From the NCBI GenBank assembly GCA_021818955.1, contig JAKASR010000001.1:248001-312000 (forward strand): a stretch of 64,000 bases of DNA. The letters run 5' to 3'. The notes below the pieces were generated by a model. The model was not told the origin of the DNA, did not search any database, and saw only the letters and a list, made by a program, of their open reading frames with translations. Every line of letters begins with the position of its first letter. Position 1 is the first letter of the stretch. The stretch is from Acidobacteriota bacterium (lineage in GTDB: Bacteria > Acidobacteriota > Terriglobia > Terriglobales > SCQP01). A program made the position numbers and the translations under genes. Positions 2,516-62,003 of the stretch are shown one piece after another.

Positions 2516-2555
2516 CCTCGTCCGTCTCGTCCGTTTTCGCGAATCGGCGGCTGCC

Positions 2556-3008: not shown

Positions 3009-3036
3009 GGGTGACACCCTCCTTGAACGGCTTTGC

Positions 3037-3105
3037 GGCGGCTCGGCCGCTTTTATTTTTAGGCGCTGACGCTTTTGCAAACGTCCGGCCGAAGCCGGAC
3101 GCTTT
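3037..3105 (-). repeat. dispersed repeat, module B
   Basis: Read on the minus strand it has a GTCCGGnTTCGGCCGGAC hairpin-like head, then AAAGCGTCAGCGCCTA, then the tail AAAAGCGGCCGAGCCGCC. It lies directly upstream of the ribosome binding site of the helical protein gene. Other copies are at 22826, 28523, 37870 and 39366. Confidence 0.75.
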
Positions 3106-3138
3106 GTGAAAATTCATGGCTGCCAGGCATTGCCAGGC

Positions 3139-3157
3139 GCAATTCCTGCGGAATTGC
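3139..3157. repeat. dispersed repeat, module C palindrome
   Basis: GCAATTCC-TGC-GGAATTGC, a perfect 8-bp stem with a 3-nt loop. The same design occurs at 39312 and, in the variant GCAATTTC-GGA-GAAATTGC, at 34602, 34631 and 39221. Confidence 0.65.
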
Positions 3158-3220
3158 TTGGTTTTGTCGTTCATAGGCGCGGGACCTAACAGGAACTCCG
3201 CGCTTCGGCCTGCGATCTCG

Positions 3221-3258
3221 GACGAAAACTTCTGTCCGACTCGGCCGTTAACGCTTTA
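3221..3258 (-). repeat. dispersed repeat, module A
   Basis: On the minus strand: AAAGCGTTAACGGCCGAGTC followed by GGACAGAAGTTTTCGTCC. It differs from the copies at 39181 and 21144 by only a few bases. Confidence 0.75.
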
Positions 3259-3494
3259 GGAGCCATCAGCCCGCGCGGCGGGCGGTTGCGGTGGGCGCCA
3301 TCACCCTGGTTTACCGCATCATAACGCAATCCGCCCGTCCGTCCCAACAGGCGGCGATGGCCGTGTGCTGAGCATCGGCCGCTTTACCCGCCGCGGTATT
3401 TTTTCTATCATCGACTTACGGTGTTGGAGTTCACCGTCAACCGCCGCCAGCTTACGGCAGATGACTCCTACCAGCATGTTTGGGCGGTGAACTC

Positions 3495-5306
3495 ATGCCT
3501 TTTCCCGATACCGCGAGCGGGCCGCAACCGCGCCAGCTTGAAAATTGCGCCGCATCAACCCGGCCCGGCCCGGCAGAGCTCCCGCCGGCGGGCGCCGGCG
3601 AATCCGCGGCAATGACCATGTCCCCCGGCTTATACGGCCTGGCGCGCCTGGCGCGAGAAATGGGGGTGGAAAGTCTTGCGGCCGAAGCGGAAGACCTGGC
3701 CCTGCGCCGCGCGGAAGGACGCGTTTATCTGGCCTGCCTGGGACAATTCAAACGCGGCAAATCAACTTTGATCAATGCGCTGCTGGGTGAGCCGGTATTG
3801 CCTGCCGGCACCCTGCCGGTGACCGCCTTGGCGACGGTGGTGCGCTACGGCCCGCAGCCCCAGCTACGGATTCGCTCCCAGCAGGGCGAGTGGGAGACGG
3901 CGCCGCTGGCCCAACTGCCGGAATATGTCTCGCAAGCCGCCAACCCGGAAAACCGCCGCGGAATATCCGCGGTCGAGGTTTTGTTTCCCGCCCCCATTCT
4001 GGCCGGGGGCTTATGCCTGGTGGATACGCCCGGACCGGGCTCGATTTTTGCCGGCAATACTCGCGAGCTGCGCGATTTTCTGCCGCGCCTGGACGCGGCC
4101 TTGTTGGTCTTCGGCGCCGATCCGCCTTTGACGGGCGAAGAGCTGGAGTTGGCGGCGGCCGCCGCCAGCCATACGCGGGAATGGATTCTCGTCTTGAACA
4201 AAGCCGATCGGGCCACCCCCGAGGAAACCGCCGCCGCCGCCGCCTTCGCCCGCGAAAAACTGGAAGCCCGGCTGCAGCGCCGGCTGCCGCCGGTATGGAT
4301 GATCAGCGCCGGCGAGCAGTTAGCCGGCGCGCCCGCCCCGCAACGCGATTGGCTGCGGTTGTGGCGCCAATTACGGCTTTTGAGCCAAAACCCGGAATTG
4401 GCCCGGCAGTCGGCGCGGCGCGGTTTCCAGCGGATACGCCGCGAGTTGCAGGCGTTGTTGCAAGCAGAACGCGAAGCGCTGCGGCTGCCTCTGGCCGAGA
4501 GCCGGCGGCGGCTGGCGGAACTGGAAAAAACTGCGGCGGCGATCGAGCAATCGCTGCGCGAACTCGAGCCGCTGCTCGATGCCGAGCAAAAGCGCATGGC
4601 GGCGGTTTGGGCGGCCCGGCAGCGCGATTTTCTCCGGCAGGCCGGGCCGCAGGCGGACGCGCGGCTGGCGGCGGCGCTCGCCGGCAGGGCGCGGCTGCGC
4701 GGCCCGCGCCTTCGGCGCGCGCTTATGGCGGAAGCGCAGTCGATTGCGCGCGCGCTGGTGCAGCCTTGGCTGGCCTCCGAAGCCGAGACCGCCGATCGGG
4801 AATTGAACCAACTCAACCGCCACTGGCTGCAGCTGGCGGCCCGTCATTTCGCCGCGCTCGCGCGCTCCGGCGTGGCCGGACTGGCGCCCTCGGAAGAAAG
4901 CCTGGCGGCGGCGCCGGGGCTGGCGGGGCGCTCGCGTTTTATTTTTCACGAACAAATGGAAATTGCCGCCCCCGCCTCGCCGCTCCTTTGGCTGGCCGAT
5001 AGCCTGCGAGGCGCATTGCGCGTCCGCGGCGGCATCGAAGCCGATGCACGCGAATTTCTGCGGCAGTTGCTTGCCATCAATGCCAGCCGCGCGCTCCACG
5101 ATTTACGCGAACGGGCTCACTCCGGACGGCGCGATCTGGCGCGCGCCTTGCGCCAGCGCTTGCATGAAGGCTGGTGTTTGGCCCGGCAAACTTACACGCA
5201 TGCCCGCGGCGCGCAGGCGGCAGGCGAGCCGGCCCTGGCCGCGGCCCTGGCGCGGCTGGATCGCCTGGAGCAAGCGCTCCAGGCTCTGGAGACGCCGGCC
5301 CCATGA
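3495..5306 (+). CDS. bacterial dynamin-like GTPase
   Basis: A 603-residue protein with a complete dynamin-type G domain: P-loop GQFKRGKST (residues 83-91), switch I Thr in the LPAGTLPVT context (about 103-110), DTPGPGS (177-183) and NKAD (235-238). The pattern LP-x-G-x2-PVTA following the P-loop is typical of bacterial dynamin-like proteins. Residues about 300-600 are helical and Arg/Glu/Ala-rich, with predicted coiled coil near 320-375, like a dynamin stalk. No obvious membrane span or paddle is seen. The start is the ATG at 3495 with GGTGA upstream; a TTG at 3480 and ATGs at 3612/3618 are alternatives. It overlaps the next gene by 4 bp (ATGA). Probable role: nucleotide-driven membrane or oligomer remodelling. 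Confidence 0.85.
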   Translation: MPFPDTASGPQPRQLENCAASTRPGPAELPPAGAGESAAMTMSPGLYGLARLAREMGVESLAAEAEDLALRRAEGRVYLACLGQFKRGKSTLINALLGEPVLPAGTLPVTALATVVRYGPQPQLRIRSQQGEWETAPLAQLPEYVSQAANPENRRGISAVEVLFPAPILAGGLCLVDTPGPGSIFAGNTRELRDFLPRLDAALLVFGADPPLTGEELELAAAAASHTREWILVLNKADRATPEETAAAAAFAREKLEARLQRRLPPVWMISAGEQLAGAPAPQRDWLRLWRQLRLLSQNPELARQSARRGFQRIRRELQALLQAEREALRLPLAESRRRLAELEKTAAAIEQSLRELEPLLDAEQKRMAAVWAARQRDFLRQAGPQADARLAAALAGRARLRGPRLRRALMAEAQSIARALVQPWLASEAETADRELNQLNRHWLQLAARHFAALARSGVAGLAPSEESLAAAPGLAGRSRFIFHEQMEIAAPASPLLWLADSLRGALRVRGGIEADAREFLRQLLAINASRALHDLRERAHSGRRDLARALRQRLHEGWCLARQTYTHARGAQAAGEPALAAALARLDRLEQALQALETPAP

Positions 5307-6079
5307 ACGAATGCGCTGCGCCTGCGCTCGCCGAACTCCTGGAGCGGGAGACGGCCATCGCGCGCCTGCGAAGCGCTCTCGCCGCGGGCGCCAATCTGCT
5401 GGTGCATGCGCCCGCGGGCATGGGCAAAACCGCCTTGTTGCGCCGCGGCCTGCCTCTCGCCCCGCGGCCCCTCTTCTGCGCGGGCGCGGCGCCGGCCGCA
5501 ATTTACGGCCAGGCGCTCGCAGCTTTGCAGGCGCTGGGCGACGCCTGCGTGGCCTCCCTGCTGGCCGCGCGCGGCCTGCAAGCCGCCGATCTGCCGCGCC
5601 TGCCCAGCTTCAGCCGCCGCGGCTGGCTGGAAAAAGCGCTCGCCGGCGGCCGCTATTGCCTGGTGCTAGACCCCGCGCCGCGAGCCTCGGCCGCCTTTGC
5701 CCGGCAACTCACCGACCTGCTGCGCCGTACTCAAACCCCGCTGGTGTGCGCCGCGCCGGCGGATTCCAGCGATTATGTGGGAGCGTTAATCAGCTTGTTT
5801 CCTTTTCGGGAAAATCGCCTGGCCCTGTTGCCGCTCTCCCCGGCCACCGCGCGGCAGTTCATGCAGGCACGTTTGCAGCAAGCCGGCGTCAGCCAGGCCG
5901 AAGCGCGCGAGGTCATGCGGCAATTGCTGCCGCTGGCGCATGGCGCGCCGGGCAGGATTGAGCAATTTGCGCGCTTGGCGGCCGAGGCGCGTTATCGCCG
6001 TCCGGAAGGCTTGAAGCTGCACAGCCTGTATCTGGATGTGCTGATGGCCTCCGCGCCGGCAAAAGGACGGAAAACATGA
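5303..6079 (+). CDS. P-loop (AAA/STAND-like) ATPase coupled to the GTPase
   Basis: A 258-residue protein with Walker A APAGMGKT (residues 36-43) after an LLERETAIARLRSAL segment, the usual entry to AAA_16/STAND-type ATPase domains. The likely Walker B is CLVLDP (119-124): the Asp is followed by Pro rather than the catalytic Glu of classical AAA+ proteins. PLVCAAPADSS may be sensor 1. The C-terminal helices (about 190-250) could form a lid. The ATG sits inside the GTPase stop (ATGA) and the gene overlaps the following one the same way, so the three products are probably made in fixed proportion. Two nucleotidases in one unit suggests a regulated assembly. The frame is open upstream within the GTPase gene but coupling favours this start. 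Confidence 0.75.
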   Translation: MNECAAPALAELLERETAIARLRSALAAGANLLVHAPAGMGKTALLRRGLPLAPRPLFCAGAAPAAIYGQALAALQALGDACVASLLAARGLQAADLPRLPSFSRRGWLEKALAGGRYCLVLDPAPRASAAFARQLTDLLRRTQTPLVCAAPADSSDYVGALISLFPFRENRLALLPLSPATARQFMQARLQQAGVSQAEAREVMRQLLPLAHGAPGRIEQFARLAAEARYRRPEGLKLHSLYLDVLMASAPAKGRKT

Positions 6080-6534
6080 GCGGCTTGAATGAAAACCATC
6101 GCTTGCGCCTCGGCGTGGTGCTGTACAGCCTGGAAAAAGCTTGCGAGCGCATCGAAGCCGCCCTCAACGATGCCCCGCGCCCGGCGGCGCTAACCTACCA
6201 TACTTACGATGACGTCACGCCCGCCGAGCGGGAAGACTTGCGGCGGATCGCCGCCGCGCTGCGTGCTCGCCTCGAAGCGTTCCGCCAGGAGTTCGATCTG
6301 CCCCGCCAGCAACGCCACTTGCGCCGCAGCCTGGCCGCCGAGTTGGCTACCCTCTGGATGCTGTTGGAAGATACCCACGCCCGCAAACTCACCGGCCGCG
6401 GCGCCATCCCGCCAGAGGAGGCTAACCGCATTAATCGGCATGTGGACGCGCTGCTGGAACTGCTGACGCCCGCCATGCGCCGTCTGAACCAGCCGATGCG
6501 GGCGGAGGCAAATTCTGAAGAGGCTAAAAGTTGA
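6076..6534 (+). CDS. small all-helical protein, paralogue of the 2556-3008 product
   Basis: A 152-residue helical protein starting at an ATG that overlaps the ATPase stop (ATGA). It aligns over its length with the divergent 150-residue protein: LYSLEKACERIEAAL against LQNLERLLAEIELI, YDDVTPAEREDLRRI against YRPDMTEAQWAALEAG, and MLLEDTHARKLTGRG against VAVEELSAEAMRGYG. No signal peptide, membrane segment or catalytic motif is seen. It ends the GTPase-ATPase operon and may be a structural or regulatory subunit of that complex. Family unknown. Confidence 0.7.
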   Translation: MSGLNENHRLRLGVVLYSLEKACERIEAALNDAPRPAALTYHTYDDVTPAEREDLRRIAAALRARLEAFRQEFDLPRQQRHLRRSLAAELATLWMLLEDTHARKLTGRGAIPPEEANRINRHVDALLELLTPAMRRLNQPMRAEANSEEAKS

Positions 6535-6585
6535 AGGCTTGGTCTTCAGCTTTTTAGTCATTTACTTCCAGGAAAAATAGTTCAT

Positions 6586-6605
6586 AAAGCGTTAACGGCC
6601 GCTTT
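6586..6605 (+). repeat. dispersed repeat, truncated module A
   Basis: AAAGCGTTAACGGCCGCTTT. It carries the GTTAAC core but lacks the second half of module A, and it is an imperfect inverted repeat (AAAGCG/CGCTTT). It lies between the converging ATPase operon and the UspA gene. Confidence 0.55.
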
Positions 6606-6643
6606 CTGTTGCTGGCTGGACGCGGCATTAGTAAGGCTTGCCT

Positions 6644-7498
6644 TCATGACCGGGGCAGCACCAGCGCCGGCGCCCGCAAGCCGCGCAGCATATGCTCCCA
6701 TTCCGGTTCGGGATGGAACCAGTGATGCTGCGCCATCGGCTCGCTTTCCAGCACCAGCAGGCTGCCCGGCTGGCGCGCCGCCCGCTCCACGTCGGCGGGC
6801 CGCAGGTTGGGACGAAAGCTGATGGCCGGACCCGGACGGCCAGCCTGGTTGAGCAAGGCGACCCGCGCCCGGCATTGTTGCTCCCAGCCGGCGCCGGCGG
6901 AAGCCTCCGCCGCGCAGGGCGCGAGCACGCTTAAGTCGGCCTGCCAACTTTCCGCCACCGCGCTGGCCACATCGAGCGCGAGTCCCGGCTCGCCGCCGGT
7001 CCGCAGCAAGGCCAGCACCTGCCGCGGCGCATAAGCCGCCGGCTCGGCTGCCGCCGCTTCCGTGACTGCCAGCAGCGGCAGGCCGGTGTGGTGCATCAGC
7101 TCGAAGGGCAAGCCTTCGACCCCCAGCCCGCTGGTCTGGCTTTGGCGGTGCAGGCCGAAGACCAGCAGCTCGGCGCCATAGCGCGCCGCCGCCTCGGCCA
7201 GCGCCTGTTCGGGACGGCCTTCGACCACTTCCGTGACCCACTCCGTGCCGGCGTCATGCTGCTGCGCGAACTGCTCCAGCCGCTGGCGCAAGCTTTTCTG
7301 CTCGCCCCGGCTCTCGGTTTGGACTTTGGCGATCTGTCCGGTCGTAAATTCCCAGGGCGATTCGCTGCGCGCCGCCAGCACCACCGCCGCGCGCGCGTGA
7401 TAATGCCGCGCCCAGGCCGCCGCCGCGCTCAGCGCCGGGCCGGAAGCCGGCGTCAGATCCACGCCGGCCAGCAAAATTTTCGGATGAAAATCGTTCAT
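6644..7498 (-). CDS. UspA-like universal stress protein, two tandem domains
   Basis: A 284-residue protein. The N-terminal domain (about 1-147) is a typical Usp fold (ILLAGVDLTPASGPAL; AEAAARYGAELLVFGLHR; LPFELMHHTGLPLLAV). The second half (about 155-284) is a degenerate Usp unit ending RGLRAPALVLPRS. The ATP-binding G-x2-G-x9-G-S/T signature is not intact in the first domain (GLHRQSQTSGLGVEGLPFE), so nucleotide binding is doubtful. Its ATG is 4 bp after the RND pump stop, making it the last gene of the efflux operon. Confidence 0.8.
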   Translation of the reverse strand: MNDFHPKILLAGVDLTPASGPALSAAAAWARHYHARAAVVLAARSESPWEFTTGQIAKVQTESRGEQKSLRQRLEQFAQQHDAGTEWVTEVVEGRPEQALAEAAARYGAELLVFGLHRQSQTSGLGVEGLPFELMHHTGLPLLAVTEAAAAEPAAYAPRQVLALLRTGGEPGLALDVASAVAESWQADLSVLAPCAAEASAGAGWEQQCRARVALLNQAGRPGPAISFRPNLRPADVERAARQPGSLLVLESEPMAQHHWFHPEPEWEHMLRGLRAPALVLPRS

Positions 7499-7502
7499 GC
7501 GA

Positions 7503-10500
7503 TTACGCTCCCACGGACGCCTCGCTGGCCGCGGGCGCCTGGCGCCGCATGTGAAATTCTTCCGCCAGCGTGTACATCACCGGCACCGCCACCGGCGCGA
7601 TCAGGGTGGTCGCCACCTCGCCCGCCATCAGCGATATCGCCAACCCCTGAAAAATCGGATCGTTTAAAATTACCGACGCGCCCACCACCACCGCCGCCGC
7701 GGTTAGCAGGATGGGGCGAAAGCGCACCGCGCCGGCCTCGATCGCCGCCTGCTGCAGACTCTGTCCCTCGGCCCGGCGCAGCTCGATGAAATCCACCAAA
7801 ATAATCGAATTGCGCACCACGATGCCGGCGCCGGCGATGAAGCCGATCATGGAAGTCGCGGTGAAAAACGCGCCCATCAGGGCGTGGCCGGGCAGAATCC
7901 CGATCAGCGTCAGCGGTATCAGCGAGAGGATGACCAGCGGCGTGGTATAGCTGCGGAACCAGGCCACCACCAGGAAATAGATCAGCAGGATCACCGCGCC
8001 AAAGGCGATGCCCAGGTCGCGGAAGACGTGCACCGTGGTGTGCCATTCGCCGTCCCATTTGAGCGAATAGCGATGCAGGTTCGACGGCGGAGAAAACAGC
8101 CGCACCTGCAGCGGCCGCCCCAGCGGGGTCGTGATCCGCTCCAGGCGCTTGTTCATGCCGTTAATGGCGTAGCCGGGGCTTTCGGCGCCGCCGGCGACAT
8201 CGCCCAGCACATAATCCACCGGACGCAAATCTTTCTGGATAATCGGCTGTTCCAGCGGGCGCGTTTCAAACCGCACCAGTTCGCCCAGCGGCACCAGCCC
8301 GCCGCTCTGGCTGGGAATCTGGAACAGCGCCAATTGCTGCGGGCCGGCGCGGCCGGATTGCGGCCATTGCAGCCAGATGGGGATTTTCTCCCGCGCGTGC
8401 CGCGCCTGCGCCCAGCCGGCTTCCATGCCGCCCTGGGCCAGGGCGAGGCTGTCGCGCAGCGTCGGCAGGCTGACGCCGCTCAGCGCCGCCTTGCGCTGCC
8501 GCGGGCGTAACAGCATCTGCCGCCCGCGGCGATAATTCCAGCGCGTATCCACCACCCCCGGCGTGCTTTCAAAAACCTGCTTCACCGCGCGGGCTACCTC
8601 CAGCCGCCCGCTCGCCGTGGGGCCGTAAATTTCCGCCACCAGGGTTTGCATCACCGGCGGCCCGGGAGGAATTTCGGCGACGGTGAGGCGTCCGCCGGCG
8701 GCGCGCGCAATCGCGGTCAGCGCCGGACGCCAGCGCCGCGCCAGGTCGTGGCTTTGGGCGCTGCGCCTGCCGGTCGCCACCAGGTTGACCTGCAAATCGC
8801 CCTGATAAGGCTGATTGCGCAGAAAATAATGCCGCACCAGGCCGTTGAAGCTGTAGGGCGCCGCCGCGCCGGCGTAGAACTCGACGTTTTTCACGTCCTG
8901 CTGCCGGGCCAGATAATCCGCCAGCCGCTGCGCCACCGTCTGGGTCGCCTCGAGCGGGGTGTTTTCCGGCATGTGCAACACCACTTCCAGCTCGGTTTTG
9001 TTGTCGTAAGGCAGCATTTTGACCAGCACCAGCTTGAAATACAACAACGACATCGCCGCCAGCAACAACGCCGCCAGCAGGCCGAGAAAGCTCCAGCGCC
9101 GGCGGCCGGTCATCAGCCCATTCATGCCGCGGCGATAGATGCGGGTCAGGCCTTTTTCCGGCGAGGCGGCCAGCTCGGCGCCGGTGGCGTGCGGCGCGCC
9201 CAGCAGCCGCAGCGTGGCCCAGGGCGTGACCACGAAGGCGATGGCGAGCGATAACAGCATGGCCGCGGTGGCGCCCAGCGGAATGGGGCGCATATACGGG
9301 CCCATCAGCCCGCCGACAAAGGCCATGGGCAGCAACGCGGCGATCACCGTCAGCGTGGCCAGGATGGTGGGGTTGCCCACTTCGCTCACCGCGGCGATGG
9401 TGATGGCGATGGCGCTGCGCCCCTGGTTCTGCGGCAGGCGGAAATGGCGCACGATGTTTTCCACCACCACGATGGCGTCGTCCACCAGAATGCCGATCGA
9501 GAAGATCAGCGCGAACAGCGTGATGCGGTTGAGCGTATAGCCGTGCAGGTAAAAGAGGAACAGCGTCGCCAACAGCGTAATGGGAATCGCCGCGCCCACC
9601 ACTCCCGCCTCGCGCCAGCCCAGCACCAGGCCGATCAGCACGATCACCGAGAGCGTGGCCAGCGCCATGTGCTCCAGCAGCTCGTTCGAGCGTTCTTCCG
9701 CCGTGCGCCCGTAATTGCGGGTCACGGTGACGCGCACGCCGGCGGGAATCACGCGATTGCGCAAAGCGTCAACTCGCGCCAGCACCTGGTTGACGACCTG
9801 GATGGCATTGGTGCCCGGACGCTTGGCGATCGACAGCGTCACCGCCGGCAAGGGTTGGCCGCGCAGCCCGGCCGGAAGCCCGCGCTCGCCCGGCCCGAAA
9901 ATCATCCCCGCCTCGTGCTGCGGCTCGGCGGGCGCGTTCCGGATGGCGGCTACTTGCCGCAACAACACCGGCGCGCCATTGGCTACGCCCACCACCACCT
10001 GGCCCAGATCCGCGGCATTGCGAATCCAGCCGCCGGCGAACACCGGCGTCTCCCGGTTGTTGTTCACCAGCGACCCCGTCGGAGTTTTGTCGTTGGCCGC
10101 CTCAATCGCCGCCGCCACCTGGCCCGGGGATAGGCGGTATCCCGCCAGGCGGCTGCTGTCGAGCGCCACTCGCAATTCGCGCGTGCGCCCGCCAATGATT
10201 TTTACGCTTGAAACGTCGGGCACGCGCTTGATCGTCGCCCGCAGTTCCGCCGCCAGCACTCGCAGTTGGGCATCGTTGTATCCCGGGCCGGCCAGCGTCA
10301 GGCCCAGCACCGGCACGTCATAGATGGAACGCAGTTTGATCAGCGGCGGCGTGGCATTGCCCGGCAGCCGGTCGCGGTGAGCATAGAGTTGGGTATAGAC
10401 GCGCGTCAGGCTGTCCTGCACGTTGAGGCCGACGCGAAACCGCACCGTTACCAGGCTCATGCCCGGCAGCGACAGGGTGTAGGTGTGCTGCACCCCGGCA

Positions 10501-10748
10501 ATGTCCTGCATCATCTGCTCCAGCGGGGTGGTGAGGCGCCGGTTGACCACCTGGCTGGAAGCGCCCGGCAGCGCCGTCATGATATCCACAAACGGCACGC
10601 GAATCTGCGGTTCCTCTTCGCGCGGCATCTTCCAGATGGCGAAACCGCCCAGCAACACCGCCGCCGCCATCAGCAAGGGCGTCAGCTTGGAATTGACGAA
10701 ATAGGCGGCAATGCCGCCCGCCGGTCCGGCCGAAGGGGATTTACTCAT
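7503..10748 (-). CDS. RND-superfamily efflux permease (AcrB/MexB-like)
   Basis: A 1081-residue inner-membrane permease, full length for the family. Twelve membrane segments in two halves are separated by large periplasmic loops. The proton-relay Asp pair in TM4 is present (GILVDDAIVVVENI, Asp 423-424), as is the entry FVNSKLTPLLMAAAVLL. The relation to HAE/CzcA-type pumps cannot be resolved by eye; some sequence (QHTYTLSLPGMSLVTVRF, NTNAIQVVNQVLARV) recalls the broad, incompletely typed RND subgroup common in environmental bacteria. The ATG overlaps the adaptor stop by 8 bp; the frame is open further upstream but inside that gene. It works with the TolC and adaptor encoded upstream. Confidence 0.9.
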   Translation of the reverse strand: MSKSPSAGPAGGIAAYFVNSKLTPLLMAAAVLLGGFAIWKMPREEEPQIRVPFVDIMTALPGASSQVVNRRLTTPLEQMMQDIAGVQHTYTLSLPGMSLVTVRFRVGLNVQDSLTRVYTQLYAHRDRLPGNATPPLIKLRSIYDVPVLGLTLAGPGYNDAQLRVLAAELRATIKRVPDVSSVKIIGGRTRELRVALDSSRLAGYRLSPGQVAAAIEAANDKTPTGSLVNNNRETPVFAGGWIRNAADLGQVVVGVANGAPVLLRQVAAIRNAPAEPQHEAGMIFGPGERGLPAGLRGQPLPAVTLSIAKRPGTNAIQVVNQVLARVDALRNRVIPAGVRVTVTRNYGRTAEERSNELLEHMALATLSVIVLIGLVLGWREAGVVGAAIPITLLATLFLFYLHGYTLNRITLFALIFSIGILVDDAIVVVENIVRHFRLPQNQGRSAIAITIAAVSEVGNPTILATLTVIAALLPMAFVGGLMGPYMRPIPLGATAAMLLSLAIAFVVTPWATLRLLGAPHATGAELAASPEKGLTRIYRRGMNGLMTGRRRWSFLGLLAALLLAAMSLLYFKLVLVKMLPYDNKTELEVVLHMPENTPLEATQTVAQRLADYLARQQDVKNVEFYAGAAAPYSFNGLVRHYFLRNQPYQGDLQVNLVATGRRSAQSHDLARRWRPALTAIARAAGGRLTVAEIPPGPPVMQTLVAEIYGPTASGRLEVARAVKQVFESTPGVVDTRWNYRRGRQMLLRPRQRKAALSGVSLPTLRDSLALAQGGMEAGWAQARHAREKIPIWLQWPQSGRAGPQQLALFQIPSQSGGLVPLGELVRFETRPLEQPIIQKDLRPVDYVLGDVAGGAESPGYAINGMNKRLERITTPLGRPLQVRLFSPPSNLHRYSLKWDGEWHTTVHVFRDLGIAFGAVILLIYFLVVAWFRSYTTPLVILSLIPLTLIGILPGHALMGAFFTATSMIGFIAGAGIVVRNSIILVDFIELRRAEGQSLQQAAIEAGAVRFRPILLTAAAVVVGASVILNDPIFQGLAISLMAGEVATTLIAPVAVPVMYTLAEEFHMRRQAPAASEASVGA

Positions 10749-11967
10749 GGCTTGCCGCTCCCGCCGCCTCGTCCGCCAGCCGTTCGGGCGCCGCGACGAC
10801 GCGCGTCCCCGGCGCCAGGCCGGCCAGAATCCGCACCTCGCCCGCGCGCGTCCGCCCGGTGCGCACCCAGTGCAGTTCCGCCCGCCCGGCGGCATTGAGG
10901 CTGTAGATTTCGCTCAAGCCGCCCTGGCGCAGCACCGCCTGGCTGGGCAGCCAGATTTGCGGCGCGGACGCCAGCGGAATTTCCGCCGTCGCGTATTCCC
11001 CCGGACGCAGCCGGCTGGAGGGCGGCAGCGACAGTTTAACCATCGCCGCGTGCGTGACCGGATCGCTGGCCGGCCCAATCTCCGCCACCCGGGCCGCCTC
11101 CTCGCCGCCGGCCGAACGAACGCTTACCGTTTCCCCGCGGCGTAAATACTGCAACACCTGATCGGGAGCCGAAATCACCAGCCGCAGCCGCCGCGTTCCC
11201 GCCAGCGTCAACAGTGGCTGGCCGGGGTTGGCCAGCATTCCCGGATCCGCGTCTTTCGCCGTCACCACCCCGGCAAAGGGCGCGCGCAGCACCGCGTAGC
11301 CGGCCATGGTGCGGCTTTGCTCCAGCGCCGCCTGCGCCTGCCGCCGCTGCGCTTCCACCGAGGCCACCCGCGCCCGCATCGCCGCCAGCTCCGCCGCCGC
11401 CGTCTGATTGGCGGTGGCCACCTTTTCAAATTCGTACGGGCTGACCGCATGCTCGGCCCGCAGCCGCTGATAACGCCGATAGGTGCTGGCGGCAAAACCG
11501 GCCTGCTGCGCCGCCGCCGCTTGCTGCTCTTCCGCCGCCACCGCCGCCGAAGCCATCGCCGCCAGGCCCGCCCGCGCCTGGCTGACCTGTTGCTGCGCTT
11601 CCGGCGTGGATAGCACCGCCAGCACCTCGCCCGCCCGCACCGGGTCGCCCAGGCCGACCCGCACCTGCTCGACGTAGCCGCTGACTCGCGCCGCAATCGC
11701 CGCCTGCTGTTGCGCTTCCACCACGCCATTCGCGTTCCAGTACTCCGGCAGCGTTTTCAGGCGGGCTTCCACCAGCGGCGTGTGGGCCGGCAGCGCCAGG
11801 CCGCTGGCGCCGCTGGCCGCCGCCGGGCGGTGCCCGCAGGCGGAAAGCGCCAGCCCGGCCAGCAGCGCCGCCGCGCTCCCGGCGATCAGTGCCCCCGCGC
11901 GCCGCCGCCCGCGCTTGCTCGCGGTGGCGGCGGCTTTAGGCTTGAAATCCTCAATCAGGGTCGTCAT
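10741..11967 (-). CDS. RND periplasmic adaptor (membrane fusion protein)
   Basis: A 408-residue adaptor. After a charged N-terminus (1-25) comes a hydrophobic signal with lipobox-like LALSACG (about 38-44), so it is probably a lipoprotein. The lipoyl half-motifs are visible: ARVSGYVEQVRVGLGDPVRAGEVLA on one side and YAVLRAPFAGVVTAKDADPG on the other, with a roughly 100-residue Ala/Gln-rich coiled-coil hairpin between. Beta-barrel and membrane-proximal domains follow. The gene is 106 bp downstream of the TolC gene and overlaps the permease start. Confidence 0.9.
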   Translation of the reverse strand: MTTLIEDFKPKAAATASKRGRRRAGALIAGSAAALLAGLALSACGHRPAAASGASGLALPAHTPLVEARLKTLPEYWNANGVVEAQQQAAIAARVSGYVEQVRVGLGDPVRAGEVLAVLSTPEAQQQVSQARAGLAAMASAAVAAEEQQAAAAQQAGFAASTYRRYQRLRAEHAVSPYEFEKVATANQTAAAELAAMRARVASVEAQRRQAQAALEQSRTMAGYAVLRAPFAGVVTAKDADPGMLANPGQPLLTLAGTRRLRLVISAPDQVLQYLRRGETVSVRSAGGEEAARVAEIGPASDPVTHAAMVKLSLPPSSRLRPGEYATAEIPLASAPQIWLPSQAVLRQGGLSEIYSLNAAGRAELHWVRTGRTRAGEVRILAGLAPGTRVVAAPERLADEAAGAASHE

Positions 11968-54313: not shown

Positions 54314-54342
54314 AGAAAAGCGGCCGTGCGGAGCACGGCCGC
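54314..54342 (-). terminator. rho-independent terminator for the GH3 gene
   Basis: On the minus strand GCGGCCGTG-CTCCG-CACGGCCGC is followed by TTTTC, 22 bp after the beta-glucosidase stop: a 9-bp GC-rich stem, 5-nt loop and U tract. Confidence 0.8.
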
Positions 54343-54364
54343 TCCCATTGGTGCGCCGCGATCC

Positions 54365-57088
54365 TTAGCGGATCATAAACGATGCCTGCAAGGGCAGATC
54401 GCGGGAGGAACTGCCCACATAAATCGTGCGTTGGCCTGTCGCAGTGACCCAATCAGATTTTGCCGTGGACCAATACTGCAAGCTGCGCAGCGGTACCTGG
54501 ATCACCACGGTGCGCGAAGCATGAGGCGCCAGATGGACGCGATCGAACCCGCACAGCGCCCGCTTGGCAAAGGGCACGCCGGCCGGCGGTGTATCCGGCG
54601 CACCGATATACACCTCAGGCACGGCATCTCCCGCTACCGGCCCGGTGTTTTTCACATTCAGGCTGACTTCCACGCCGCCATTGGGTTGGCGGAGCGCGTG
54701 AAGGTTCGAGAATTGGAAGGTAGTGTAGGAGAGGCCGTAACCGAACGGAAACATCGGCTTGATATGTTGCTGATCGAACCAGCGGTAGCCTACGAAGATG
54801 CCTTCCGAATAGATGGTCTTTCCATCCACACCCTTGGCGGAACGCTCCGGATGCGCCGGATCCGTGGCCGGATAATCCGTCAGCTTATAAGCCCAGGTAA
54901 ACGGCAATTTGCCTCCCGGATCCGCCTTTCCCAGCAGTAAATTCGCCGTGGCTTTGCCGCCCTCGTCGCCCGGCCACCACATTTGCAGAACCGCCTTGAC
55001 TTGGTTCAGCCAGGGCATGGCGACAGGCTGGCTGATATTCATCACCACGATCGTATTGGGGTTGACGGCGGCAACCTGCTCGATGAGTTGGTCTTGATCG
55101 CCCGGCAGCGCAAAGGTAGGCTTGCCGCGAGACCAGACGAAGACCACGGCCGCGCGCGCCGCTTGGGCTGTGGCCAGGGCGCGCGCATAATCCGCTTTTC
55201 GCCGCTGAGGTGTCATCCAATTCAACCGAATTTGCTCGGGGTGGCCCGATGTGTCCGGGGAAGCCGTCACGGTGAGACTATGCGGTCCGGCGGTCAATTC
55301 GATGGCGCGCCGCACGTTATCGAGGCCATCGGTGGTAGGGAATGGATTGTCTTGGGTCGCGTATTGCACGTCGCCGTGGACGCCCCCTGCCATCGCTCCG
55401 GTCCTGCCCAAGGGTGTGCCATCGATCGCCAATGTGCCTCGCGCTCCGAGCACTTGCAAATAAAGCCAATAATTGCCGGTTTGGGGTACGGTCAGCGTGC
55501 CCTTCCAGGTCCAGGAAGTGTTGGCGGGCAGGGCGCGATGATTGGCGAGAGTGAAATTTAACTGCCGATTGACCTGCGTGCCGCCATGGGCGCCAATCCG
55601 CTCCAATCCCGGCTTGCCGCCATGGGAAAGCAGCGAAGCGGGAACCGGCACGCCGGTCATGTCGTCCGCCACGGCATAGGTGAGATGAATATGGGGTTCA
55701 TGCGCGGTCGCTTGGTGCAGGGCCGCCAGCGGGCTGATTTCGCGACTGACAATGCCCGTCGATCGCTCGCCAAACACCCCGATCGCATCCAGTTGCCTCG
55801 CTCCCGGGCCGATCAGGGCCAAAGACTGCAGTGCCGTGCCCCGCAACGGCAATATATGGTCTTCATTTTTCAACAGCACCGCCGCATCCTCGGCGGTTTT
55901 TAACAGCACGGCATCATTGGCCGCAAAGGCTTGTGGGGTTATGCTTTGCTTCTCGTTGCCATCGAGATAGCCAAAGCGATCCATTTCATAAAGCACCCGC
56001 CCGGCGGCGCGCGTGATGGTCGCCGCGCTCACGCTGCCATTGCGCAATGCATCCCGCATGGTTTCTTTGCCGGCCTCGCGGGGAAAACTGGAGAAATTGA
56101 AGCCTTGGCGCGGCTCCTCCGGAATGGTGCCGCCCAGCATGGCGGCCAGAGCCTTCGAATTCAGCTTTGGCGCCGGTTGCTTTGGGCGTGGCGTGGTGCG
56201 GAAATAACTGGGAAGAAACGCTCCCAGCGGGGGAGGCATTTCCCCCGGCATCTCCATATCCAGGCCGCGGTTAATAAAATGCACGTTGTGCACCGCGCCC
56301 CAATCGGAGGTCACAAAGCCTTTGAAGCCGAGCTGGCCGCGCAGAATCGTCTTTAGCGTGTCTGGATTGCCGCAGGCAAACGCGCCATTGACTTGGTTAT
56401 AGGAGCACATGATGGCCGCCACCCCCGCCTTGACCGCGGCGGCAAATGGAGCCAGGTAAATCTCATGCAATGTTTGCTGATCCAGGACTGTATTGAAGGA
56501 GTTGGAATCATAGCCCACATAATGCTTGGCCATCGCCATTACCCCCTGCGACTGGATGCCGCGAATCTCCGCCGCGCCGACCATCGAGGTTAAAAACGGA
56601 TCTTCGCCAAAGGTGTTATAGGCGCGGCTGAACGTGAAGTCGCGAGCGATATTGATGAATGGCTGCAACGATACCTGTATGCCGTGCGAGCGATCCTGGC
56701 GGCCGATGACGATTCCGTTCTGGAGCGCGTCGCGCAGGCTGAAGGTCGCCGCCACCCCCATCGTGGCTTCTTCCGCCTGCGAGGCATGCCGGGTCAGTAC
56801 TCCCGGAGGTCCGTCCGCCAGTCGCAAGAAGGGAATGCCCAGCTTGGGCACGCCGGGAAGAAAGCCGGCTTGCCCCTGGTTATCGGTTTTCTCGAAACCA
56901 CCGCGGATCAAGTCCATCTTCTGCTGCAGCGTCATTTCGCTCAGCAACTTGTCCACCCGCGGATTCCCGGTCACTTTCGCCGGCGCCTGCTGCGCCCTCA
57001 CTACGGGGGCGCCCGCTAAGGCGGCCGAACAAATCAGGAGCCATGCGGCTATTCGCCCTCTCGTCTTCGCTCGCTTTGCAACGCTCAT
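54365..57088 (-). CDS. glycoside hydrolase family 3 beta-glucosidase with PA14 domain
   Basis: A 907-residue secreted hydrolase. Signal peptide about 10-33. GH3 N-domain (about 40-300) holds the nucleophile Asp262 in GFVTSDWGAVH and the substrate-side AKHYVGYDSNS. The GH3 C-domain follows, with a PA14 domain inserted (LNFTLANHRALPANTSWTWKG, YWLYLQVLGARGTLAIDG), as in BglX/BgxA-type enzymes, and a C-terminal Fn3-like domain (AGDAVPEVYIGAPDT). ATG at 57088 with AGGAAAG upstream; a longer frame from 57178 is less likely. Divergent from the TetR gene with operator boxes between. Confidence 0.9.
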   Translation of the reverse strand: MSVAKRAKTRGRIAAWLLICSAALAGAPVVRAQQAPAKVTGNPRVDKLLSEMTLQQKMDLIRGGFEKTDNQGQAGFLPGVPKLGIPFLRLADGPPGVLTRHASQAEEATMGVAATFSLRDALQNGIVIGRQDRSHGIQVSLQPFINIARDFTFSRAYNTFGEDPFLTSMVGAAEIRGIQSQGVMAMAKHYVGYDSNSFNTVLDQQTLHEIYLAPFAAAVKAGVAAIMCSYNQVNGAFACGNPDTLKTILRGQLGFKGFVTSDWGAVHNVHFINRGLDMEMPGEMPPPLGAFLPSYFRTTPRPKQPAPKLNSKALAAMLGGTIPEEPRQGFNFSSFPREAGKETMRDALRNGSVSAATITRAAGRVLYEMDRFGYLDGNEKQSITPQAFAANDAVLLKTAEDAAVLLKNEDHILPLRGTALQSLALIGPGARQLDAIGVFGERSTGIVSREISPLAALHQATAHEPHIHLTYAVADDMTGVPVPASLLSHGGKPGLERIGAHGGTQVNRQLNFTLANHRALPANTSWTWKGTLTVPQTGNYWLYLQVLGARGTLAIDGTPLGRTGAMAGGVHGDVQYATQDNPFPTTDGLDNVRRAIELTAGPHSLTVTASPDTSGHPEQIRLNWMTPQRRKADYARALATAQAARAAVVFVWSRGKPTFALPGDQDQLIEQVAAVNPNTIVVMNISQPVAMPWLNQVKAVLQMWWPGDEGGKATANLLLGKADPGGKLPFTWAYKLTDYPATDPAHPERSAKGVDGKTIYSEGIFVGYRWFDQQHIKPMFPFGYGLSYTTFQFSNLHALRQPNGGVEVSLNVKNTGPVAGDAVPEVYIGAPDTPPAGVPFAKRALCGFDRVHLAPHASRTVVIQVPLRSLQYWSTAKSDWVTATGQRTIYVGSSSRDLPLQASFMIR

Positions 57089-57215
57089 CGTAGCTTTCCT
57101 GGGTTGGCCAAGTCTCTTGGATCGAATTCCTGTTTGCTTTGGGTGTTGATGGTGAGACACGGGGAGTTTCACTTGCATGATCCCGCAGCATAGACACCCC
57201 GCCTCCCAATGTCAA

Positions 57216-57241
57216 CACTGAGTGCCATATTGCACTGAGTG
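57216..57241. promoter_or_regulatory. paired CACTGAGTG boxes, operator candidate of the TetR regulator
   Basis: The 9-bp palindromic box CACTGAGTG occurs at 57216-57224 and 57233-57241, centres 17 bp apart, between the divergent GH3 and TetR starts. TGTC (57211) and GACA (57241) flank the pair as an outer inverted repeat. Spacing and symmetry fit binding of two TetR dimers. Predicted only. Confidence 0.65.
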
Positions 57242-57265
57242 ACACTATCTGCTAATTTTCCTCAG

Positions 57266-57901
57266 ATGATGACCGTCACCCTGGTCAAGCGGAATCCCCC
57301 CGTCGAAAGCGCGCCCATGGGGCTTCGGGCCAAAAAGCGCAAGTTGACGAAGGCTGCGATTTGGGACGCCGCGATCGATCTGTTTGCTGAAAAAGGATTC
57401 GATAACACGACCATCGACGAGATTGCCGCGGCCGCGTGGGTCTCGCGCCGGTCATTCTTTCGGTACTTTCAATCGAAGAACGATCTCATGGCGCAACCCA
57501 TCGCGAGCATGGCGAATTCACTCGCCAAGGCGGTGGCGTCGTGCCCTCAATCCGCCGCCCCGGCGGATCTGTTGCGCTATGTGGTCCTGGCCCTTGCGCG
57601 TGCAAGCGCCGCCGAGCCACGCACCGCCAAGGTGATGGAGATAGCGGCCAAATATCCGGCTGCCCGGGAGGCGCTTCTTTCGCGCATGGCGGCGGTACAG
57701 TCTCAGATCGACGCCGCTTTCAGGCGCCGGTGCAAGGACCCCTTCCTGGTTCAAGTGCTCTGCACGTTAACTCTTTCCACGCTCTCGCTCTCGGCTCAGC
57801 ATTGGTTGGCTAACGGCCAGAGAGATATCGCCGTATCGACGCGGAAAGTCTATTCCGCCATTGCCGCCGTCGTTAGCGGGCTCGACGAGCCTCAACGTTG
57901 A
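57266..57901 (+). CDS. TetR-family transcriptional regulator
   Basis: A 211-residue regulator. N-terminal HTH (about 32-78): AAIDLFAEKGFDNTTIDEIA AAAWVSRRSFFRYFQSKNDL (written in two parts), typical of TetR. The C-terminal ligand domain (about 80-205) is not matched to a ligand. Start ATG at 57266 (ATG at 57269 also possible); a GTG upstream lies in the operator box. It is divergent from the GH3 gene and probably represses it until a sugar-derived or other inducer binds. Confidence 0.9.
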   Translation: MMTVTLVKRNPPVESAPMGLRAKKRKLTKAAIWDAAIDLFAEKGFDNTTIDEIAAAAWVSRRSFFRYFQSKNDLMAQPIASMANSLAKAVASCPQSAAPADLLRYVVLALARASAAEPRTAKVMEIAAKYPAAREALLSRMAAVQSQIDAAFRRRCKDPFLVQVLCTLTLSTLSLSAQHWLANGQRDIAVSTRKVYSAIAAVVSGLDEPQR

Positions 57902-57981: not shown

Positions 57982-58923
57982 TCAGAACTGCAGCGGGCGG
58001 GTAGGCGGACGGGCGCTATTGAGCCAGGCGGTATAAACCAGGTCGGCGAGCATCCGCGCTCCGGCGGCGAGGCGGGCGATGACAAAATGACGCCCGGCGG
58101 CGCTGCCACGGCCGCGGAAGGCGCCTTGCCGATTCAGCCGGTAAAGCGGGATCACTTGTGTGTGCGTGACGCGGAGGTATTGCAAATAGGCCCGGAACGG
58201 ATGCGCGAGGCGGCGCGGCGGAACCAGCCGGCCGCGCAGCGCATCGGCGGGCACGGCGCGATTCACAAAAACCGTTTCGAAATAGGCATGAATGCGGTGC
58301 GAACGGGTGAACCCGGCCGGATCCGGACCTATCCAGCCATTGTATTGAATCGTGGTATGTAGCGGTTGCGAGCCGTCACCCACGTAATGGCTGAGCAGGC
58401 CCATGGTTTCGATGACATGGGCGTTGAAGGGGCCGAGGGCAAGATGCCGGGCGCGAGCGGCGCGGTATTCCTGAAACGCGATCAGCAGCCGCTGATAATA
58501 CTCAATCGCGGCATAGGGATTGAAGCCGACCTTGGCGGGCGCCAGTTGCGCCGCCTCGCGCGGATGTCCCTGGCGAGACAACGCCGCGGCGCGCTGCTGC
58601 AACGCCTGAATAAAGCCATAGCGGTCGCGCGGCCAATGGGAAGCGAAGGGAACCCGTTCCAGGTTGATGAAATGATCGGGCGCGTTTTCGGCATTGAGTT
58701 CGGTCAAGCCCGATTCGCGCCAACGATCGGGCTCATTGGTCAGAAAACGCAGAGCGGTGTTGGCGTGGCGGAGAAAAGCGGGTAGCACGGGCGGCAGGTC
58801 GGCCAGCGCGGCGCTGACGATCAGTTTATGGCCCTTGGCGCCCCAGGCCCAGGCCGGCGATATAAGATTCAAAATGCATAGCCCCGCCAAGCCCAGCCGC
58901 AGCAGACGTTTTACATTTTCCAT
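57982..58923 (-). CDS. S1/P1-type secreted nuclease
   Basis: A 313-residue exported zinc nuclease. Signal peptide cleaved near SPAWA-WGAKGH, leaving the N-terminal Trp that ligates zinc in this family. Other ligand regions: APDHFINLE, LLSHYVGDGSQPLHTT and HRIHAYFETVFVN. It cleaves single-stranded nucleic acids; here it probably serves nutrient acquisition or DNA scavenging. ATG at 58923; the open frame is longer upstream but lacks the signal peptide. Convergent with the TetR gene. Confidence 0.88.
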   Translation of the reverse strand: MENVKRLLRLGLAGLCILNLISPAWAWGAKGHKLIVSAALADLPPVLPAFLRHANTALRFLTNEPDRWRESGLTELNAENAPDHFINLERVPFASHWPRDRYGFIQALQQRAAALSRQGHPREAAQLAPAKVGFNPYAAIEYYQRLLIAFQEYRAARARHLALGPFNAHVIETMGLLSHYVGDGSQPLHTTIQYNGWIGPDPAGFTRSHRIHAYFETVFVNRAVPADALRGRLVPPRRLAHPFRAYLQYLRVTHTQVIPLYRLNRQGAFRGRGSAAGRHFVIARLAAGARMLADLVYTAWLNSARPPTRPLQF

Positions 58924-59139
58924 GGCCGCATTATATAAGCCAGGCACCGCCGGACGGGAAAAAGCCAGACCTTCCGGATTGCGCTTGCGGAACCGATAAA
59001 TGCAAGCAAGGGCTGGAATCCCGGGGCTTGCCGGGTATTTCAGAGCTCTGAAAAGACGATTGAAGGCGGTTCGGAGAAGTGATAATCTCAAGCCGTACCG
59101 GGGAATGGGCGGGGCTTAATCCGCTCCTTAAACCGCAGT

Positions 59140-59406: not shown

Positions 59407-59582
59407 CCGCAGGCGCGTTTTCAGCATCTGATTGGAGAGGCCGGGGAGGAGTGTGCCTCTATACACTTGCGCCGGCGAAATTCGCGTAAGCTAAAAAATC
59501 GCGAATGAGCACGGCATCCATGGCCGCGCGAGGTTCGTGAAAGGCGTAGCCTTGGCCGCTGAGCAACTGCGCCGCCTTGGAG

Positions 59583-62003
59583 ATGATTTACGCGCTGTTT
59601 ATCCTAGGGTGGCTGAGCCGGGCGGCTCCCCACCCCCAGACCCCGGGCCGGGCATGGATGCAGGCGCGGGTGTTGGATGTCAATGGCGCGCCGGTCAGCG
59701 GCGCCGAAATCTCCTTACTGCAGGGCGCGCGCAAGTGGCTGGTCTACACCAATCGCGCCGGCCTATTTCGGCTAGGGCCGCTCGCGCCCGGCCAATACCG
59801 GCTGCAAATCGAAAAACAGGGCTACTTCCAACTCGATCAGGCGATCGCCCTGCATCGGGGCTTAAATCGCGTCCATTTGCACCTGCAGCCGGCGCATGAA
59901 TTGCACCAGACGGTGCGCGTTGTCGCCCGCGCCAACCCGATTGAGCCGCAGCAGATGGCGCATAAATTTACGCTGAGCCAGCGTGATATTCGCAACTTGG
60001 CGTATCCGACCAGCCACAATCTGGTGGAAGCGCTGCCCGCAATTCCGAGCGTGGTGCTGGATAACAGCGGCCAACTGCACGTCGCCGGGGCACGATCGCA
60101 GGCGATCGAATACACCCTCGATGGCTTCGATATCTCCGACCCGGCCACCGGCACTTTATCGGCGCGGCTCAATGTGGATGCGGTGCGCAGCGTCAAGGTG
60201 GAAAGCGGCCGCTTCGGCGCGCAGCATCCCTCCGCCGGCGCCGGCGTGTTGTCGCTGCGCACCCTGACCGGCGGCAACCGGCTGCGCTTTGGCACTTCCA
60301 ATTTTTTGCCGGGGGTGAGCTTGAAACAAGGGCTGCAATTGGGCAACTGGTACCCGCGATTCACCCTCTCTGGCCCTTTTCGAAAAAATCGGGCTTGGTT
60401 TGCCGATGCCTTGAGCTTTCAGCACACACTCACGCTGGTGCCGCAGTTGCCCAGCGGTCAAAACACCGGTAATCAATGGGACGGAGACAACTTGTTCAGC
60501 ACCCAATACGAGCTCACGCCTCACCAGCAGTTGGAAGCCAATGTATTGTTCAACTTCAACCAGGACAGCTATCTCGGGCTGTCGCCGTTTACGCCGCGGG
60601 CGGCGACGACGAACTTTCGCGAGCGCCGTGGGTGGGCCAGCCTGAAAGACGAGATCACGCTGGGCGCCAACCTGATCGAGTTGGGTGGGGCTTACGATTT
60701 GGCGCACAGCACCACCCTGCCGCAGGGTGATTCCACCTATCGGCTGACGCCCCAAGGCCCGCGCGGCAATTACTTCCAAACCGTGCATGAGATTGCCAGC
60801 CGCGGCCAGGCTATTGCCAACGTGTTTTTCGGCAGTTGGCATGCCTGGGGTGAACATAACTTTCGAGTGGGCGGAGACTGGCTTGCGCCCCGGCTGCGGC
60901 AACAGGCTCAGCGACGCGAATTTGAGATTATCGGCGCCGGAGGCGCGGTGTTGCAGTCCAGCCAATTCCTCGGTTCGCCCCTGCTCACGGTGCACGATCA
61001 ACTGGCCGGCGTCTATGCCGAAGACGAGTGGCAGTTGGCGCGAAGCCTGCGCATCGAGCCGGCGTTGCGGGTGGACCATGATCAGTTGGCCGCCGGCGCG
61101 CTGCCGGCCCCGCGACTAGCGCTCAATTACGTGCCCTGGGCCAATAATCAAACCAAAATTTCCGCCGGTTGGGGCATCTTTTACCAGCCGGTGAACTTGA
61201 GTACTTATGCTTTAGCCTTCGACCAACAGCGCCAGGACACGCTCTATAATGCCGCCGGACAGCCGCAATCGCCGCCGTTTCTTATCCGCTTCGGCTTGCC
61301 GGGAGCCAAACTGAAAGCGCCCCGCTATTACACCAGCTTCCTGGGTTGGGAACAGGAATTGCCCGAGCGGGTCTTCCTCGGGCTGCGTTGGCTGCAGCGC
61401 CAGCAACGCGATGGGTTGGCCTATGAGAACCTGTCGCCCGCCGGTCCCACCGAATTTTTTCTTTTGCAAAACAACCGCCGCGATCACTATCACTCGTTTG
61501 AAGTCTCGTTGCGGCGCACTTTCCGGCAGGCGGCGATCTTTGGCGATTACATCCGCTCTCAGGCGACCACCAACGAAGCCATTGAGAATAATCTCGGCAC
61601 CGCGTTTTTTTCACCTCAGGCCGGCGGACCGCTGCCGTGGGATGTGCCCAACCGGCTGCTGCTCTGGGGCTGGGCGCCGACGCATATCTGGCAAATTCTC
61701 GGCAGTTGGTATTTGGATACCCGCACCGGCTATCCCTTCAACGTGGTGAATGCGCGCGAGCAGTTGGTGGGACCGCCCGGCCACCTACGCTATCCCAATT
61801 ATTTGAGCCTCAATGTCGCCTTTGAAAAGCGCTTCCGGTTTCATCAGCATGAATGGGCGCTGCGGCTGGCGGTTTTGAATATCACCAATCACAACAATCC
61901 CGACGCCGTGATCAACAATATCGCTTCGCCGGGCTTTCTCAGCTTTTCCGGGAGCGAGGGGCGGGTGTTTACCGGACGGCTGCGGCTGGTCGGCAGCCAT
62001 TAA
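59583..62003 (+). CDS. TonB-dependent receptor with carboxypeptidase-like N-domain
   Basis: An 806-residue outer-membrane receptor. Short signal-like lead (1-17), then a CarboxypepD_reg/beta-sandwich domain (about 28-105: ARVLDVNGAPVSGAEISLL, LGPLAPGQYRLQIEKQGYF), a plug (about 125-225: LVEALPAIPSVVLDNSGQ, YTLDGFDISDPATG) and a 22-strand-type barrel ending with GRLRLVGSH. The barrel end lacks a terminal aromatic residue, which is unusual. ATG at 59583 or TTG at 59577. It would take up a large substrate with TonB energy. No partner periplasmic genes adjoin it. Confidence 0.85.
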   Translation: MIYALFILGWLSRAAPHPQTPGRAWMQARVLDVNGAPVSGAEISLLQGARKWLVYTNRAGLFRLGPLAPGQYRLQIEKQGYFQLDQAIALHRGLNRVHLHLQPAHELHQTVRVVARANPIEPQQMAHKFTLSQRDIRNLAYPTSHNLVEALPAIPSVVLDNSGQLHVAGARSQAIEYTLDGFDISDPATGTLSARLNVDAVRSVKVESGRFGAQHPSAGAGVLSLRTLTGGNRLRFGTSNFLPGVSLKQGLQLGNWYPRFTLSGPFRKNRAWFADALSFQHTLTLVPQLPSGQNTGNQWDGDNLFSTQYELTPHQQLEANVLFNFNQDSYLGLSPFTPRAATTNFRERRGWASLKDEITLGANLIELGGAYDLAHSTTLPQGDSTYRLTPQGPRGNYFQTVHEIASRGQAIANVFFGSWHAWGEHNFRVGGDWLAPRLRQQAQRREFEIIGAGGAVLQSSQFLGSPLLTVHDQLAGVYAEDEWQLARSLRIEPALRVDHDQLAAGALPAPRLALNYVPWANNQTKISAGWGIFYQPVNLSTYALAFDQQRQDTLYNAAGQPQSPPFLIRFGLPGAKLKAPRYYTSFLGWEQELPERVFLGLRWLQRQQRDGLAYENLSPAGPTEFFLLQNNRRDHYHSFEVSLRRTFRQAAIFGDYIRSQATTNEAIENNLGTAFFSPQAGGPLPWDVPNRLLLWGWAPTHIWQILGSWYLDTRTGYPFNVVNAREQLVGPPGHLRYPNYLSLNVAFEKRFRFHQHEWALRLAVLNITNHNNPDAVINNIASPGFLSFSGSEGRVFTGRLRLVGSH

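Follow-up and report, generated by a model that had tools for sequence, protein, structure and literature searches.

We analysed a 64,000-nucleotide stretch of contig JAKASR010000001.1 of an Acidobacteriota bacterium (hereafter the window), in which a gene for a secreted beta-glucosidase of glycoside hydrolase family 3 (GH3, minus strand) and a gene for a TetR-family regulator (plus strand) are oriented divergently, with two exact CACTGAGTG palindromes in the intergenic stretch that they share. Because the same boxes recur at TetR genes elsewhere, they are probable operators for regulators of this type, and the GH3 gene is likely to be a target of the regulator, as argued for by the divergent layout, the position of box 1 beside a promoter match of 10/12 and the presence of a second TetR/GH3 pair in another genome (G160). 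The reading that we favour, and hold to be reasonably probable, is a local autoregulated repressor switch, in which TetR bound to both boxes silences GH3 and tetR. Repression of GH3 combined with autoregulation appears the best reading because box 1 abuts the strong GH3 promoter match. The features of the locus are as follows.

54320..54342, minus strand: probable terminator, a hairpin and U run directly 3' of the GH3 stop, found by folding
54365..57088, minus strand: secreted GH3 beta-glucosidase, 907 amino acids (probable start ATG 57088; longest frame from 57178)
57187..57215, minus strand: GH3 promoter match, TTGACA (57215-57210), 17-bp spacer, TATGCT (57192-57187)
57216-57224, strand not assigned: box 1, CACTGAGTG palindrome, putative operator
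57233-57241, strand not assigned: box 2, CACTGAGTG palindrome, putative operator
57317..57901, plus strand: MftR-like TetR-family regulator, 194 amino acids (favoured start ATG 57317)

The paired boxes and the GH3 promoter

A preliminary description of this DNA had placed two boxes 17 bp apart between the gene starts, and this was borne out: the starts of box 1 and box 2 are separated by 17 bp, with 8 bp between the palindromes, and no further exact copy of CACTGAGTG is present in the window. Within the complete 3.8-Mb genome, this pair is the only one at a 17-bp pitch, even with up to two mismatches allowed, and no other exact pair is found at gaps of 0-30. When the intergenic stretch was shuffled 5000 times with dinucleotide content preserved, a comparable palindrome pair arose in five. 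Across the whole window, eight pairs of palindromic 9-mers no more than 60 bp apart were observed (100 shuffles gave a mean of 2.65 and a maximum of 9); since such pairs are common window-wide, the pair of boxes is notable by its location, and not by its existence alone. Their abundance in this GC-rich window would fit a chance or non-regulatory repeat, an explanation against which the shuffles of the intergenic stretch argue and to which we return with the data from other genomes.

The GH3 promoter match (score 10/12; shuffle mean 0.1) is the sole match in 57050-57350, and its -35 hexamer lies flush against box 1. As read from the sequence, transcription would start near 57180, giving an untranslated leader of ~90 nt to ATG 57088.

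We also searched the genome for a second target of the regulator. Exact GCACTNAGTGC was absent (0 sites versus 3 for the reversed control), and TGGCACNNNGTGCCA with at most one mismatch was found at 4 sites, versus 6 for the reversed control. With no second pair, and single sites not above the reversed control, a wider regulon in this genome was rejected.

The TetR regulator and the putative operators of its relatives

The start of tetR is uncertain: comparison with homologues favours 57317, the alternatives being 57266, 57269 and a GTG at 57239, within box 2. The product belongs to the TetR family according to its TetR_N domain (PF00440, 9.9e-17) and an all-helical predicted fold. Its best NCBIfam model is MftR (TIGR03968), the score of 80.8 bits lying far below the equivalog cut-off of 224.9, so that it is not counted as an MftR. 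An AlphaFold model built on an 18-sequence alignment (pLDDT 89.3) has SCO0337 (2dg7) as its closest fold match, with MftR (8x0a) in seventh place. MftR, the mycofactocin repressor, is a neighbour of the window TetR in both sequence and fold.

The recognition helix of the window TetR reads SRRS. The footprinted MftR operator is described as 5'-TCCATTCTGGCACTCGATGCCATATAT (PMC8728441), and its core, GGCACTCGATGCC, which matches CACTCAGTG at 7/9 positions (counted by eye), shares a GGCACT half-site with the operator type of the window TetR; this half-site supports the assignment of the operator type. In contrast to the two boxes of the window locus, the same report presents one footprinted region for MftR. 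Single nucleotide changes in the MftR palindrome left binding unimpeded in the experiments reported there, so the palindrome is not strictly required for binding by MftR (PMC8728441).

Besides the window protein, seven TetR relatives (E below 1e-20) were identified in six of 99 other genomes, and an eighth, in G160 (E 4.6e-18), among 396 genomes of the phylum. The palindrome GGCACNNNGTGCC is present in front of six of these eight. In five of the six (four relatives that face RND genes, and G160) it lies, as judged by eye, within the candidate 17-bp spacer between the -35 and -10 hexamers of the divergent gene, the target strand reading TTGACA (TAGACA in G065), then 17 bp that include the palindrome, then TANNNT. 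The promoter candidate in G027 consists of TTGACG, 18 bp with the palindrome and TATACT, followed by a second palindrome. The motif TTGACANNGGCACNNNGTGCC was detected in 5 of 396 genomes, four times at TetRs of this clade, and its reversed control in none; in the fifth genome, G248, no frame resembling a TetR is close by. Of 30 rows of TetR loci drawn from relatives, eight have an S[RKY]R[ST]FF helix, and in four of these GCACTNAGTGC is matched upstream at nine or all ten positions, versus 0 of the 22 with other helices; this count is a description and no clean test, because the motif was picked after some of the sequences had been viewed.

A tree of the regulators joined nine members, the window protein included, with moderate support (86/96). 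G160 is placed on a long branch, the four RND-associated members form a subclade (100/98), and the place of the window TetR within the clade is not resolved. Its closest relative is the G027 TetR (39% identity), which has a small secreted frame and a GH2 gene to one side of it and, across from these, a glucuronyl-esterase-like gene. The G160 TetR, from another family of the phylum, faces a GH3 whose nearest solved structure is 8xrt (CcBgl3B) and which is 26-32% identical, in pieces, to the window GH3. When 193 genomes were searched for the G160 TetR class, one further match was obtained (G458), with no box in its 2.2-kb locus. The two glycosidase-associated loci are:

L142 (G160:C83) 2461-5654: TetR/GH3 pair, box at 4892, TTGACA-17-TAGTAT on the GH3 strand with the palindrome TGGCACTGAGTGCCA in the spacer
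L143 (G027:C51) 4200-9760: G027 locus, with a pair of GGCACNNNGTGCC palindromes on its divergent side, spaced 31 bp

No close relative of the window TetR was found on plasmids, where none of the 54 matching records covers 80%. Outside the clade, locus L112 of G059 (positions 3735 and 4572) carries a TetR with an SRRTFF helix; its gene is preceded by an GCACTGAGTGC palindrome, and the divergent neighbour is a short-chain dehydrogenase gene.

Recurrence of the paired boxes in other genomes

A scan of a species-wide genome collection, genome_contigs, for CACTSAGTG-N8-CACTSAGTG yielded 42 loci, whereas chance alone would account for ~15 if all four bases were equally frequent. A TetR gene is situated at the boxes in 23 of them (start within 60 bp, or longest frame overlapping the boxes); a position taken at random in these loci would be no more than 250 bp from the start of a TetR gene in at most ~4% of cases. 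All 23 regulators have a recognition helix of the form [SA][RK][RK][ST], like the SRRS of the window TetR, and they do not constitute an unbiased sample, because the profile with which the TetRs of these loci were found was built from relatives of the window protein. As 15 of the 23 loci are of the Nocardiopsidaceae type (a grouping that we made from record titles and the similarity of the sequences), they represent closer to eight independent lineages. In ten Nocardiopsidaceae loci (L006, L009, L013, L014, L017, L021, L031, L032, L035 and L041) the pair is located exactly 25 bp before tetR, and an MMPL gene lies behind tetR in both loci of this type that were looked at (L013, which was scanned, and the similar L011). 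A further 17 of the 42 loci have no TetR at the boxes, one of them (L020) having a TetR-like frame 1.4 kb away. In the remaining two, the TetR gene is ~1.5 kb off, behind a pyridoxal-dependent decarboxylase gene that adjoins the boxes. The latter arrangement, with both genes in the same direction, was seen in delta-proteobacterial and Myxococcales metagenome-assembled genomes (L008 at 7763 and L016 at 6012).

The frequency of TetR genes at these loci is the second argument against a chance or non-regulatory repeat. In its favour, besides the ~15 loci attributable to chance, is the situation in the phylum itself, where CACTNAGTG paired at any spacing occurs in 3 of 396 genomes, versus 9 for the reversed control; in the two other than our own (G126 and G237), no TetR-like frame lies within the 1.5-kb flanks. 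Weighing these data together, we regard this explanation as very improbable.

Proposed mechanism and observations that weigh against it

The computation shows the genes, the boxes, the promoter match, the return of one operator type with this kind of TetR and a second TetR/GH3 pair; we infer binding, a repressing and not an activating role, and the nature of ligand and substrate. Both CACTGAGTG palindromes would be occupied, each by one TetR dimer. At box 1, which adjoins the GH3 -35 hexamer directly, the dimer would bar RNA polymerase from the GH3 promoter, and that on box 2, near the tetR start, would limit expression of tetR. From the geometry, two dimers at a 17-bp pitch should not share one face of the helix. 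TetR would be freed by a small ligand, for which an aromatic or otherwise hydrophobic glucoside, or its aglycone, is a guess, upon which the secreted glucosidase, of the DesR/BcpE2 type, would be made.

Several observations weigh against this scheme. The only tetR promoter candidate at box 2, TTGCAC 57230/TAATTT 57253 with 17-bp spacing, is weak (3/6 matches in each hexamer, counted by hand), and the promoter scan of 57050-57350 contained no good one. Two TetR relatives, G023 (facing a frame of no known family, with a Usp-family gene beyond) and G038b (with nearby frames of no known family), lack the GGCACNNNGTGCC palindrome in front. Among 100 relatives, our own genome included, the fixed-spacing pair is confined to our own genome and its reversed control occurs in six; as this control, like that of the any-spacing scan in the 396 genomes (also a point against the scheme), is commoner than the pattern itself, paired boxes do not characterize the phylum as a whole. 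The window boxes are located upstream of the GH3 -35 hexamer, and not within the spacer as in the relatives, and the mode of action could therefore differ.

This last point would suit a TetR that activates GH3, binding just upstream of the -35 hexamer and aiding RNA polymerase, and a few members of the TetR family do act as activators. However, the promoter matched before GH3 already comes close to the consensus and has the ideal spacer length, and the palindromes of five relatives are placed as expected of a repressor; activation by TetR therefore seems to us distinctly unlikely.

The neighbourhoods of the relatives and of the GH3 orthologues also count against the repressor switch. In four of the eight relatives (G052, G065, G043 and G038), all from the order to which the window genome belongs, tetR is divergent from an HlyD-type membrane-fusion gene, with an RND gene after it; the fusion genes and one RND gene were identified with Pfam, and the other RND genes by similarity to window frame 7506-10895. 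These loci share the TetR group, the operator type and the divergent layout with the window, but differ from it in having a single palindrome, situated in the candidate promoter spacer, and an efflux pump as the neighbour. In the window itself, frames similar to these RND and membrane-fusion genes are located at 7506-11967, and no exact CACTGAGTG is present there.

Full-length GH3 orthologues (54-65% identity) were detected in 33 of 99 other genomes, not counting G077, whose orthologue is partial. None of the 33 has a TetR-like frame in its flanks (29 loci with 1.5-kb flanks, and again the same 29 plus 17 wider loci that cover the other four), and none has CACTNAGTG or GGCACNNNGTGCC within 600 bp upstream. 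A single 9-of-10 match to GCACTNAGTGC lies within this distance in one orthologue (G035), and exact boxes elsewhere in the orthologue loci are found within the GH3 gene or downstream of it, except in L127, where the distance upstream exceeds 2 kb. The sole genome of the same genus, G001, contains neither a full-length GH3 orthologue nor a close TetR. A TetR/GH3 regulon conserved among the orthologues was thus rejected. The preliminary description had proposed that TetR controls GH3 and had counted two things against its own proposal, lack of binding and lack of boxes conserved upstream of orthologues, the second of which is what the 33 loci present; the proposal keeps the support of the layout, of box 1 at the promoter and of the G160 pair.

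The boxes might alternatively serve autoregulation of tetR only, the real duty of TetR lying elsewhere (e.g. at an efflux pump or a stress gene) and GH3 being a constitutive bystander. The RND/MFP (membrane-fusion protein) genes facing half of the relatives, the 33 orthologues that do without TetR, and the Nocardiopsidaceae-type loci with the pair 25 bp before tetR and, in the two looked at, MMPL behind it all agree with such an arrangement. It is opposed by the lack of a second paired site in the genome and the single-site counts below those of the reversed controls, by the contact between box 1 and the GH3 -35 hexamer, and by the TetR/GH3 pair of G160. We consider it unlikely, although less so than activation.

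The GH3 beta-glucosidase

The GH3 product consists of a signal peptide (recognized by eye), the GH3 N and C domains, a PA14-like insertion and an Fn3-like domain (Pfam: GH3_N 1.4e-33, GH3_C 1.9e-46, Fn3-like 3.3e-17). The nearest solved structure is that of DesR (4i3g, E 1.6e-138; next best 1.3e-87), with which the SDW and YSEGI/YREGI stretches of the window enzyme align; we take these stretches to bear, in DesR, the nucleophile Asp and the acid-base Glu, respectively. With both domains and both catalytic stretches, the window enzyme is, on the grounds of its sequence, a GH3 beta-glucosidase. An Asp and a Glu are given as the catalytic residues (PMC9426481). The preliminary description had called the enzyme PA14-type; the insertion aligns partly with DesR, and the Pfam PA14 match is weak (E=0.0019, 18.5 bits) and below the curated cut-off of 24.

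DesR is counted among the PA14 GH3s in the paper on BcpE2 (PMC9426481), and both DesR and BcpE2 (7pjj) have the layout of the window enzyme, with a PA14-like insertion and an Fn3-like domain. Unlike the acidobacterial enzyme, they come from Streptomyces. BcpE2 is reported to have cleaved every heteroside considered in its study, amygdalin not thoroughly (PMC9426481). Since BcpE2 is a GH3 of the same layout, aromatic or hydrophobic glucosides may be the substrates of the window enzyme. TetR is not mentioned anywhere in the BcpE2 paper.

The hairpin 3' of GH3 is absent from the list of a consensus terminator scan; the 65-nt stretch concerned folds at -29.3 kcal/mol (z -3.3). In a tree of GH3 proteins, the window GH3 grouped with 30 sequences of a neighbouring family, apart from the three of its own family. 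Given long branches and a midpoint root only, no claim of lateral transfer is made.

A predicted precedent for TetR control of beta-glucosidases

The preliminary description had remarked that such glucosidases are more often controlled by LacI or AraC proteins. A Pfam scan of ten neighbouring genes in the GH3 orthologue loci revealed no LacI or AraC regulator, and TetR control has a predicted precedent in BgrT, the TetR-family beta-glucoside/galactoside regulators, described as 23 proteins from ten bifidobacterial genomes, of which BgrT1 and BgrT2 were predicted to control bglX (PMC4746261). The window locus resembles these systems in having tetR beside a beta-glucosidase gene, a palindrome in the common regulatory region and a presumably local regulon. 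It differs in the length of the palindrome (18-22 nt predicted for BgrT versus 9 bp), and in that BgrT clusters often include sugar transporters (PMC4746261), none of which was noticed directly beside the window pair. Another sugar-linked TetR that has been described is XsaR (PMC5928203). By analogy, the window pair is a local variant of known gene control, of the BgrT kind by its arrangement, and not a new system.

A literature search for CACTGAGTG with TetR gave, among the matches listed, no title to the point (two concern Streptomyces: PMC3533511 and PMC5643529), and one for CACTCAGTG with TetR and palindrome gave unrelated papers only. Searches combining TetR with glucosidase, glycoside hydrolase or aglycone likewise produced nothing to the point by title among the matches listed.

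The observations suggest an operator code, in which the palindrome CACTNAGTG or GGCACNNNGTGCC goes with an [SA][RK][RK][ST] helix and which might help to predict what TetRs not yet studied regulate. They also point to a small regulator clade situated beside either glycosidases or efflux pumps, and a signal shared by the two could be shown by one reporter assay. As a tentative idea, the MftR-like TetR clade may have moved repeatedly, within the phylum, between efflux pumps and glycoside hydrolases (two cases of GH3 and one of GH2 plus esterase) while its operator type GGCAC-N3-GTGCC/CACTNAGTG stayed the same, pumps and glucosidase perhaps answering the same kind of signal, i.e. hydrophobic plant or microbial glycosides or aglycones.

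Neighbouring genes

Behind tetR, and convergent to it, lies a gene (57982-59091) that matches S1/P1 nuclease weakly, at 21.1 bits against a cut-off of 29.5. Further on, at 59577-62003, the window encodes an 808-amino-acid protein with a CarboxypepD_reg domain, which shows a distant likeness to an outer-membrane beta-barrel protein encoded upstream of the GH3 orthologue of L128.

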